From Cytophagales bacterium (GTDB lineage Bacteria > Bacteroidota > Bacteroidia > Cytophagales > 172606-1), in contig JAUJMU010000001.1 in NCBI GenBank assembly GCA_030446715.1, positions 349,297-413,296 of the forward strand: a DNA stretch of 64,000 nt. The letters are read 5' to 3'. Of the stretch, positions 46,080 to 48,999 are shown piece after piece. The notes under the pieces were generated by a model. The model was not told the DNA's origin, made no database searches, and saw only the letters and a list, made by a program, of their open reading frames with translations. The position numbers were made by a program, and so were the translations under genes. How positions within the stretch are numbered: position 1 is the stretch's first letter; each line of letters opens with the position of its first letter.

Positions 46080-46129
46080 AACCTCACCCCCGGCCCCCTC
46101 TCCCCAGGAGAGGGGCCGGGGGTGAGGTT
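46080..46129. repeat. G/C-rich palindromic repeat (REP-like)
   Basis: Left arm AACCTCACCCCCGGCCCC plus CTCTCC (46080-46103) and right arm GGAGAGGGGCCGGGGGTGAG plus GTT (46107-46129) pair over 23 positions with one bulged C. Sequences of the type GAGGGGCCGGGGGTGAGG are dispersed repeats in many genomes (from memory). It is isolated in the 420-bp gene-free stretch after tRNA-Cys. Confidence 0.85.
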
Positions 46130-46319: not shown

Positions 46320-46355
46320 AAATAAAAAATGCACCAGTATGTACCGGTGCATTTT
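46320..46355 (-). terminator. Terminator of the tRNA-like RNA
   Basis: AAAATGCACC (46326-46335) pairs with GGTGCATTTT (46346-46355); on the minus strand it is followed by TTTTTTATTT. Confidence 0.85.
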
Positions 46356-46543
46356 AAATTCCTAAACCAATCTTAACACTAAGCTGTAGGAGAAGGGCTC
46401 GAACCTCCACGGGGCGGTTAGCCATAGCGCAAATTATGGTGGTCAACCCCTGCCTGTTAAAGAAACAGACCTTACGCTAGGTTTTTTCCGGACTCCCCAC
46501 CCCCGAGACAGGAGGGCATGGCTGCCAATTTCATCACCCTACA
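46321..46543 (-). ncRNA. Structured non-coding RNA with class II tRNA-like domain
   Basis: On the minus strand, 5' end near 46543. The tRNA-like part spans 46385-46543 (159 nt). Acceptor: TGTAGGG (46537-46543) pairs with TCCTACA (46385-46391), 7 bp with one G-T. D arm: ATG-loop AAATTGGCAGC-CAT, the loop form of class II (Leu/Ser) tRNAs. T arm: GGAGG-TTCGAGC-CCTTC (46092-type order, at 46392-46408), directly joined to the acceptor. An anticodon-like stem CCCTC/GGGGG holds a loop CTGTCTC whose middle reads GTC, but position 37 is T. In place of a normal variable arm there are about 80-90 nt with hairpins CTGTT-AACAG and CCATA-TATGG. No CCA. It ends in its own terminator at 46320-46355. I cannot match it to tmRNA, RNase P, SRP or 6S from memory. 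Confidence 0.55.
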
Positions 46544-46545
46544 TT

Positions 46546-46578
46546 GTATCGTCCAACCGATATGTAATTGAACGATAC
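46546..46578 (-). promoter_or_regulatory. Inverted repeat GTATCGT-N19-ACGATAC at the tRNA-like RNA start
   Basis: Seven-base arms match exactly; the element begins two bases upstream of the RNA 5' end and covers its likely promoter. Function is inferred. Confidence 0.35.
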
Positions 46579-46694
46579 AAAACTAACAAAAGATGCCTTT
46601 CCTTGCAAATTTTATATAGTTATGACAAAATTTTTACAATTTTTTTAAATAAACATTCCTTATATTAAAGGTAATTGAAAAGTGACGCTATTTT

Positions 46695-47159
46695 ATGCCT
46701 AAAAATTTTGATATTGACAATGTCGACCTGAAGATACTCTCCCTGCTGATCGAAGACGCAAATATGCCTTACACGGAAGTGGGCAAAAAAGTATTTGTGT
46801 CGGGTGGCACGGTTCACGTACGGATGCGGAAGATGGAGGAGATGGGAATTGTAAAAGGTGCGCAGCTGAACATTGATTACGCTAAAATCGGGTGGGACAT
46901 CACTGCTTTTCTGGGCATTTATCTGGATAAGAGTTCGCTTTACAGTGAGGTGGCCAAAGAACTGCTGAAAATTCCGGAGATCGTCAACATTCACTATACG
47001 ACTGGCAACTACAGCATTTTTGCCAAAATTATCTGCCGCGACACCCAGCACCTGCGCGAAGTACTGCACGACAAAATTCAGAAGGTGACCGGTATCCAGC
47101 GCACAGAAACATTTATCTCCCTGGAAGAAAGCATCAACCGGCCGCTGCCGTTTGAATGA
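46695..47159 (+). CDS. Lrp/AsnC family transcriptional regulator
   Basis: A 154-residue regulator. N-terminal winged helix-turn-helix (FDIDNVDLKILSLLIEDANM, then PYTEVGKKVFVSGGTVHVRM, with the recognition helix) and C-terminal RAM/ligand domain with GWDITAFLGIYLDKSS and VNIHYTTGNYSIFAKI. Length is normal. Such proteins bind amino acids and form octamers on DNA. It is divergent from the tRNA-like RNA and lies ahead of the suf operon by about 390 bases; no link between them is shown. Confidence 0.88.
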   Translation: MPKNFDIDNVDLKILSLLIEDANMPYTEVGKKVFVSGGTVHVRMRKMEEMGIVKGAQLNIDYAKIGWDITAFLGIYLDKSSLYSEVAKELLKIPEIVNIHYTTGNYSIFAKIICRDTQHLREVLHDKIQKVTGIQRTETFISLEESINRPLPFE

Positions 47160-47553: not shown

Positions 47554-48999
47554 ATGAGCAAGGATTCACAAATACTAGAAGATATTACCCGGTCGGAGTA
47601 TAAATATGGGTTTGAGACAATCATTGAATCCGAATCAGCTCCGAAGGGACTTAGTGAAGACACGGTCCGCTTCATTTCGGCTCGCAAGAATGAGCCGGAG
47701 TGGATGCTGGAATGGAGGCTGAAGGCGTATCGCCAGTGGCTTACCATGAAGGAGCCCACGTGGCCCAATGTCAGCTATCCCAAAATCGATTTTCAGAACA
47801 TCATCTATTATTCTGCTCCCAAACAGAAAATATCGCCAAACAGTCTCGACGAAATTGATCCCGAACTGCGGGCTACTTTTGAGAAGCTGGGCATTTCCCT
47901 TGACGAGCAAAAACGCCTTACCGGTGTAGCCGTAGACGCCGTGATTGACTCGGTTTCCATTGCCACTACTTTTAAAGGCAAGCTGGCCGAAATGGGCATC
48001 ATCTTCTGCTCCATGAGTGAAGCTGTCGAAAACCACCCTGAGCTGGTACGCCAGTACATCGGATCGGTAGTGCCCGTAAATGATAACTATTACGCTGCTC
48101 TCAACTCAGCGGTGTTCAGCGACGGTTCGTTTGTGTTTATTCCCAGGGGCGTACGGTGCCCGATGGAGCTTTCCACTTACTTCAGGATCAATGCCAAAGA
48201 AACGGGTCAGTTTGAGCGGACGCTGATTGTGGCTGAAGAAGGAAGCTAAGTAAGCTACCTCGAAGGCTGTACGGCCCCCATGCGCGATGAGCATCAGTTG
48301 CATGCCGCCGTGGTGGAACTGGTGGCCCATACCAAAGCCGAAATCAAATATTCCACCGTGCAGAACTGGTATCCGGGTGATAAGGAAGGCAAAGGCGGTA
48401 TTTACAACTTCGTAACCAAGCGCGGCATCTGCATGGGCGACAGTGCGAAGATCTCCTGGACGCAGGTGGAAACTGGTTCGGCAATTACCTGGAAATATCC
48501 TTCGGTGATCCTGAAAGGCGATAATTCCATTGGTGAGTTCTACTCAGTAGCCGTCACCAATAACCGCCAGCAGGCCGATACGGGTACTAAAATGATTCAC
48601 ATCGGCAAGAACACTAAGAGCCGGATTGTATCCAAGGGAATTTCGGCTGGGAAGAGCCAGAACTCCTACCGCGGTCTGGTAGAAGTACACCGCCGCGCCG
48701 AAAATGCCCGTAACTTCTCACAGTGCGATTCCCTGCTGATGGGCGACAAGTGCGGCGCACATACATTCCCGTACCTTGAAATCAAGAATTCCACGGCTCA
48801 GGTAGAGCACGAGGCAACTACTTCCAAAATCGGCGAAGACCAGATTTTCTACTGCAACCAGCGGGGCATTGACACCGAAGCTGCCGTTGCGCTGATCGTG
48901 AACGGATACGCGAAGGAAGTCCTGAAGCAGTTGCCGATGGAGTTTGCCGTAGAGGCGCAGAAGCTGCTGGCGATCAGCCTCGAAGGCAGCGTTGGCTGA
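47554..48999 (+). pseudogene. sufB: Fe-S cluster assembly protein SufB, interrupted by an in-frame stop
   Basis: The frame would give about 481 residues, the usual SufB length. It starts [20 protein letters not shown]. Codon 232 (48247-48249) is TAA: the sequence reads [11 protein letters not shown][15 protein letters not shown], where SufB proteins have a Tyr (GSYVSYLEGC). The rest is intact up to [11 protein letters not shown], including the conserved Cys of YLEGCTAP and the His-rich C-terminal part ([20 protein letters not shown]). SufB is the scaffold subunit of the SufBC2D complex that builds Fe-S clusters and should be essential. A single change from TAT or TAC to TAA explains it: a sequencing error or a real nonsense mutation. 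The gene heads an operon otherwise complete. Confidence 0.85.

Follow-up and report, generated by a model that had tools for sequence, protein, structure and literature searches.

tRNA-dependent asparagine synthesis, in which AspRS and GatCAB act on tRNA-Asn, is described for Deinococcus, Thermus and Bdellovibrio in PMC4206432, where the U1-A72 pair of tRNA-Asn is also given as read by bacterial GatCAB. The review PMC9976931 states that amidotransferases depend on U1-A72 for Glu-tRNA-Gln, lists G73, G10, G34, U35, C36 and C38 as the bacterial Asp determinants with G2-C71 as a minor one, and assigns to true tRNA-Asp a G1-C72 pair which is said to help position the 3' end on AspRS. According to PMC4482635 and PMC8707732, the E. 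coli regulator AsnC switches on asnA, an effect that is lost in the presence of asparagine.

Here we describe a tRNA-like RNA with the anticodon loop letters of tRNA-Asp, the acceptor pair U1-A72 and an AsnC-type gene as its divergent neighbour. We take it for a non-decoding tRNA devoted to asparagine metabolism, with a probability of roughly 0.55.

A class II tRNA fold with a giant variable arm

The RNA lies on the minus strand of the window, by which we mean the whole 64,000-nucleotide stretch of DNA that was analysed. The features of the locus are listed below.

46383..46543, minus strand: tRNA-like RNA of 161 nt, from U1 (46543) to C74 (46383), from the sequence and a match to covariance model R1
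46537..46543, minus strand: acceptor stem, 5' strand UGUAGGG (U1, G2)
46518..46534, minus strand: D arm, class II loop with GG, from sequence and covariation
46500..46516, minus strand: anticodon arm CCCTC-CTGTCTC-GGGGG, loop at 46511-46505
46411..46498, minus strand: giant variable arm of ~80 nt, base helix GGGG/CCCC pairing 46498-46495 with 46414-46411
46392..46408, minus strand: T arm GGAGG-TTCGAGC-CCTTC, from sequence and covariation
46383..46391, minus strand: acceptor stem, 3' strand TCCTACA, followed by G73 and C74
46578..46608, minus strand: predicted promoter TTG-N20-TAGTTTTG
46321..46355, minus strand: predicted intrinsic terminator, hairpin and T-run, from sequence and family-wide enrichment
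46695..47159, plus strand: divergent AsnC-type regulator (Lrp/AsnC family), 154 aa, from NCBIfam and PDB comparison

The initial annotation of this stretch had proposed class II tRNA geometry with a large insert in the variable region, and the minus-strand sequence bears this out with every element where it had been placed, namely an acceptor of 7 bp (TGTAGGG/TCCTACA, including one G-U), a D arm reading ATG-AAATTGGCAGC-CAT, a T arm that abuts the acceptor directly and a variable region of ~80 nt. The terminator reported downstream is likewise present as a hairpin and T-run at 46355-46321. The RNA has what a canonical tRNA cloverleaf requires, which is four arms, a TTC loop and a D-loop GG. Inside the variable arm are an internal loop conserved across the family and inner hairpins including GGTTGACCACC. 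The tRNA-Asp identity of the anticodon loop, the AsnC partner, the phage copies and the tandem copies are absent from that annotation.

Absence of covariation in the stems had been named as an outcome that would refute an RNA gene, and this is not the case as the cloverleaf covaries. In the 26 copies from which covariance model R1 was made, the 24 cloverleaf pairs, including the base helix of the variable arm, were paired in 99.5% of 624 cells as against at most 63.3% in slid-pairing controls, and there were 30 double changes versus 7.5 +/- 2.1 in shuffles. With 110 distinct copies 98.6% were paired and double changes numbered 214 (54.8 +/- 5.6 in shuffles), although the covariation figures from this larger alignment call for caution since it was fitted to the structure model. 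The base helix of the variable arm changes from GGGG/CCCC to GGTG/CACC, GAGG/CCTC and GGAG/CTCC, and the anticodon stem shows the compensated variants CCCGC/GCGGG, CCGCC/GGCGG and CCACC/GGTGG; a further form, CCTCC/GGTGG, leaves a mismatch that was seen at one pair in 27 of the 110 copies. The single-sequence folding energy of the window RNA is unremarkable (z = -0.55). We had also considered a kissing contact between the anticodon GUC and a GAC in a variable-arm hairpin, which was dropped because many copies are without the hairpin yet retain GUC.

Predicted transcription signals recur in the family. A promoter of the Bacteroidota type (TTG-N17-23-TAnnTTTG) precedes 63 of 159 copies as compared with 0-2 in mononucleotide shuffles, and a terminator-like hairpin follows 97 of 161 copies as compared with 11-18 in shuffles. 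The motif TTTGCAA, a possible AsnC or -33 site, occurs upstream of 46 of 159 copies (1-6 in shuffles). In the window an inverted repeat, TTGTATCGT...ACGATACAA (46544-46580), separates the predicted promoter from the first nucleotide of the RNA.

Two other observations concern the surrounding DNA. A GC-rich, long and near-perfect inverted repeat beginning CCTCACCCCCGGCCCC (window 46082-46127) separates the RNA from tRNA-Cys and resembles a REP-type element. The SufB gene (window 47554-48999) is present as two adjacent ORFs of 231 and 239 aa compared with a single 481-aa ORF in related genomes, and is either a disrupted gene or a sequence error.

Distribution of the RNA family

A gathering-score search of the window against 4227 Rfam families returned no match for the RNA, which excludes membership of a known Rfam family and with it another outcome that had been named as refuting. 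A search around the RNA up to E = 10 gave nothing relevant, with YrlA/Y RNA and tmRNA (RF00023) included and unmatched. A Y RNA is ruled out by the lack of an Rfam match, and a substitute for tmRNA by the ordinary tmRNA that the host has elsewhere in its genome; the same lack of a match agrees with the initial annotation, which had found no fit to tmRNA, SRP RNA, RNase P RNA or 6S RNA. ARAGORN made no tRNA or tmRNA call on the window copy, and among 52 R1-matched copies outside the window it called only one short variant. Searches of listings of open-licence papers turned up no description of this RNA.

Searching 59 relatives with the window copy using blastn (E up to 1) gave matches in 49, the strong ones falling across many families of the order and often in tandem. 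R1 finds the window copy, one of those that it was built from, at 46381-46548 with 162.2 bits. Members of the family score at least 68.8 bits whereas tRNAs in the fetched loci score at most 30.5 bits; R1 matches of ~90 nt elsewhere, taken as true tRNAs, reach ~61 bits, and for this reason a limit of 68 bits was applied. At this limit the RNA is present in 51 of 295 sampled genomes of the class, spread over 20 families, a lower bound given the strictness of the filters, and in a phylum sample of 198 genomes none outside the class reached 68 bits. A DNA pattern run on genome contigs gave at least 120 stretches, and R1 confirmed family membership in 120 of 120. Among the matches listed (80 titles) were Spirosoma, Dyadobacter (including Dyadobacter fermentans), Hymenobacter, Chitinophaga (including Chitinophaga pinensis), Pedobacter, Mucilaginibacter, Algoriphagus, Cyclobacterium and other Bacteroidota, with one exception named only 'bacterium'. 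Two or more copies were present in 34 of the 121 host loci examined. With the window copy as query, blastn found nothing in the phage collection and a single 30-base, chance-like match in plasmids. An RNA that recurs in 20 families and covaries is more than chance.

Two variant forms were seen. The short variant called by ARAGORN (L070:9336-9419, in genome G018) is 84 nt long, has no variable arm and is assigned as tRNA-Asp(atc); its genome has asnA. The second (L357:2967-3087, in genome G183) is a diverged relative scoring 30 bits that adjoins AsnC and keeps the acceptor and T arm, with D and anticodon arms that look different.

Conserved letters resemble those of tRNA-Asp

Letters were counted in 221 parsed distinct copies, in which a few loops are mis-parsed. 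G73, C74 and G2-C71 are found in 221/221, U1-A72 in 219 and U3-A70 in 215, and acceptor pairs 4-7 vary with compensation. The sequence A72-G73-C74 is present in 162/162 host and 61/62 viral copies, the lone exception being cut by a contig end. It had been remarked that no CCA is encoded, and the gene does end at G73-C74, but this is not unusual in the host since 31 of 47 distinct tRNAs from loci of this genome end in N73-C74 without CA (CCA in 9, CC in 6, other in 1). The host tRNA set includes odd, partly duplicate genes that are perhaps phage-derived, and clusters of tRNA genes lie in the host genome (G000) at contig 14:45490-47049 and contig 10:303563-304330.

The anticodon-like loop CTGTCTC had been described as poor. 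It is instead the loop CTGTCAC of the true tRNA-Asp in the host and in the same phages with position 37 altered, and in the window copy the determinants G34, U35, C36 and C38 are all present alongside U37. Across the family G34 occurs in 202 of 221 copies and A34 in 12 (part of the remainder being mis-parsed loops), U35 and C36 in 214 each and C38 in 212. The anticodon is accordingly GUC or less often AUC, and not the GUU of tRNA-Asn. Position 37 is T in 195, C in 18, G in 8 and A in none, so that the purine (A) which a canonical tRNA has at this position is missing. Taken together the Asp loop letters and the altered position 37 make the anticodon side that of a tRNA-Asp with position 37 changed, and the lack of A37 makes decoding unlikely. 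U33 is kept in 62/62 viral and 135/162 host copies; as it is mostly kept, the case for a non-decoding RNA rests mainly on position 37 and the variable arm.

The family carries the Asp identity set of G73, G34, U35, C36, C38 and G2-C71. The only Asp determinant that it does not retain is G10, with A10 in 145 and G10 in 56 of 221. The family also has the U1-A72 pair of GatCAB substrates. This pair cannot be read as exclusive to GatCAB substrates, as 6 of the 47 host tRNAs also have U1 with A72.

Association with an AsnC-type regulator and asparagine genes

The divergent regulator has as its best NCBIfam match AsnC (NF008384, 158 bits, below the cut-off of 227), the next model scoring 77, and as its best PDB match E. 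coli AsnC (2cg4, E 7e-32). In 30 of 41 loci from 40 genomes an AsnC-type gene stands divergently beside the RNA, across a gap of 116-277 bp. The same arrangement is seen in 55 of 80 named loci, or 51 of 70 when only loci long enough to show it are counted, and some contigs belong to both sets. Genome-wide, an AsnC-type gene of at least 160 bits is found in 50 of 51 RNA-bearing genomes versus 19 of 244 others (Fisher 2e-39), and gatB (E <= 0.001), by which alone without gatA and gatC the presence of GatCAB was judged, in 51 of 51 versus 176 of 244 (6e-7). Neither value is corrected for phylogeny.

In the 19 genomes that have the regulator without a detected RNA we looked at what occupies the RNA's slot, and in five there is a divergent gene of at least 300 aa within 200 bp. 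All five are asparagine synthetases above curated cut-offs, situated 138-160 bp from the AsnC gene: AsnB in G155, G331 and G307 (941, 658 and 662 bits, cut-off 499) and an AsnA-type asparagine synthetase in G273 and G227 (326 and 332 bits, cut-off 309), with domain and structure checks for some. The slot holds no asparagine synthetase in the remaining 14; one of these, G183, has the diverged relative of the RNA, and the other 13 show a gene on the same strand, a divergent gene of another kind or no clear occupant. A tblastn search with the slot synthetases found none in the 121 RNA loci, and in RNA-bearing genomes with AsnC elsewhere a synthetase was the nearest upstream gene in 0 of 14 readable loci, as judged by first residues. 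It is mainly the AsnC partner and the synthetases in the slot that tie the RNA to asparagine. In bacteria the RNA mostly has an AsnC neighbour and occupies a slot that some relatives fill with an Asn-making enzyme, so its function probably lies in making asparagine or sensing it.

Hosts do not as a rule lack other routes. Asparagine-synthase-like genes occur in 48 of 51 RNA-bearing genomes and 268 of 295 overall, with three matches in the window's own genome, and only G034, G059 and G214 lack both TIGR01536 (E 1e-60) and TIGR00669, the AsnA-type family NF005054 lying outside the genome-wide search. An AsnRS scoring above cut-off is found in 278 of 295 genomes. Two candidate settings, a host without AsnRS (asnS is over cut-off in G000) and hosts generally without any asparagine synthetase, are thereby ruled out, and for the same reason it is conceivable that the RNA supplies no Asn. 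An asnA gene exceeds the cut-off in 10 of 242 genomes. These include G097 and G173, which have AsnC and no RNA, G018 with the 84-nt RNA and G035 with a good RNA, and they do no more than suggest that asnA and the RNA exclude each other.

These data leave room for an RNA that is no carrier for synthesis and instead senses or regulates asparagine or aspartate status, the charged or uncharged form of which acts on AsnC, AspRS, GatCAB or an mRNA. Such an RNA would share the AsnC pairing and the Asn-gene slot, asnB-like genes stand alongside the RNA in most of its genomes, and the size of the variable arm and the conservation within it hint at an interaction partner other than AspRS and GatCAB. The near-invariant U1-A72, G2-C71, G73 and C74, however, fit turnover as a charged tRNA, and phage copies are without AsnC; we regard a sensor as unlikely.

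Copies in phages

The pattern found 95 stretches in IMG/VR and the RNA is present in 95/95, of which 94 are complete and one is cut. When eight neighbour proteins were scanned against PHROGs the names returned were terminase, portal, PhoH, thymidylate synthase and exonuclease, and a terminase cluster was near the RNA in 38 of 80 viral loci. The Asp letters of the loop are kept in 62/62 viral copies and the stems drift. No AsnC gene was found within 5 kb of the viral copies (80 of 95 loci examined). With one viral copy as query blastn returned a 76.5% identical stretch in an uncultured huge-phage record (LR756504) and one weak match; with another the 175 records returned matched nothing more than the D-arm end of genes such as phage tRNA-Leu. 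Several viral loci, including L219, L238, L248 and L271, carry tRNAs for the full set of 20 amino acids or close to it (the full set in L219 and L238), and several of these have tmRNA as well.

Three further explanations were weighed. In 7 of 37 viral loci scanned the RNA directly follows tRNA-Ser. SerRS leaves the anticodon unread and favours a long variable arm, G73 and G2-C71 (determinants in PMC9976931), and the RNA has all three of these features. A tRNA mimic charged with serine would nevertheless leave the near-invariant U35, C36 and C38 unexplained and has A72 where C72 would be expected, while the AsnC gene and the asparagine synthetases of the genomic context point away from serine, so that we find it quite improbable.

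A decoy for anticodon nucleases or other tRNA-targeting defence, in phages and hosts, has much the same standing and is in our view very improbable: an anticodon decoy needs no invariant acceptor letters, and most host copies are paired with AsnC, although every viral stretch found by the pattern carries the RNA and the 37 loci scanned include tRNA genes in 26 and tmRNA in 9. An unusual decoding tRNA-Asp or a recoding tRNA, to which the GUC anticodon of most copies, the retention of U33 and the ARAGORN call on the short variant might point, is scarcely credible given that A37 is never found, that an ordinary tRNA-Asp is present in host and phages and that an amidated form would place Asn at Asp codons.

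Proposed role in asparagine metabolism

For the preferred reading, a non-decoding tRNA devoted to asparagine metabolism, we propose the following course. The RNA would have a promoter of its own and undergo tRNA-type maturation, with U1 at the 5' end and CA added to the G73-C74 at the 3' end. AspRS would charge it with Asp by way of G34-U35-C36, C38, G73 and G2-C71, and GatCAB, recognising U1-A72, would amidate Asp to Asn on the RNA. The product may then be kept out of decoding, and Asn released or sensed without being inserted at Asp codons; this is suggested because position 37 is never A, U33 is partly lost in hosts and the variable arm is huge. The divergent AsnC-type regulator may tune the RNA by asparagine supply as E. 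coli AsnC does asnA. Charging and amidation, like the release of Asn, the exclusion from decoding and the regulation by AsnC, are inferences, and there are no charging, amidation or expression data. What we observe is an RNA family with its fold and conserved letters, its AsnC partner and, in five RNA-less genomes, asparagine synthetases in its slot.

The reading we favour on this basis is of an RNA, charged with Asp that is probably amidated to Asn, which stands in for an asparagine synthetase under AsnC control, the enzymatic steps and the regulation being inferred. The fuller statement, that it is an RNA-based asparagine synthetase on which AspRS and GatCAB make Asn for the cell, regulated by AsnC, evolutionarily interchangeable with asnA and asnB and borne by phages, some of which also have near-complete tRNA sets and tmRNA, is tentative and in our estimation falls a little short of even odds. 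Several facts stand against the proposed role, in that G10 is not kept, A34 is found in 12 copies, true tRNA-Asp has G1-C72, U1-A72 is not specific to GatCAB, asparagine-synthase-like genes and AsnRS are present in most RNA-bearing genomes, 14 of the 19 RNA-less slots hold no asparagine synthetase and phage copies are without AsnC within 5 kb. Nor does the role account for the hairpin and the conserved internal loop in the variable arm.

If the proposal is true, the tRNA fold would gain a new role, with a separate tRNA maintained only as a support on which an amino acid is made or sensed. It would also be a present-day instance of the notion that amino acids were once synthesised on RNA. The RNA might also help explain the occurrence of GatCAB beside AsnRS in many Bacteroidota, and it is one that phages bring along.

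Comparison with known systems

To our knowledge tRNA-dependent asparagine synthesis is known only on decoding tRNA-Asn. The fold and the enzymes are already known, and the novelty would lie in a non-decoding tRNA set apart for asparagine. With a decoding tRNA-Asp the RNA shares the anticodon loop bar position 37, G73, G2-C71, the D/T elbow and the N73-C74 gene end. It differs in having U1-A72, a variable arm of ~80 nt, no A37 and the loss of U33 in some host copies, and in going undetected by the Rfam tRNA model (RF00005) or ARAGORN. tmRNA also combines a tRNA-like domain with an insertion, and some phages carry both, but here the insert is in the variable region, the anticodon arm is intact, RF00023 is unmatched and the host tmRNA is separate. 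The E. coli AsnC/asnA pair is similar in tying an AsnC-type regulator to an Asn-making gene, with the difference that the RNA occupies the place of the enzyme gene. The likeness to tRNA-dependent asparagine synthesis lies in the proposed chemistry and the U1-A72 recognition pair, whereas the RNA is separate from the decoding tRNA-Asn, has an Asp anticodon and is partnered by an AsnC-type regulator.
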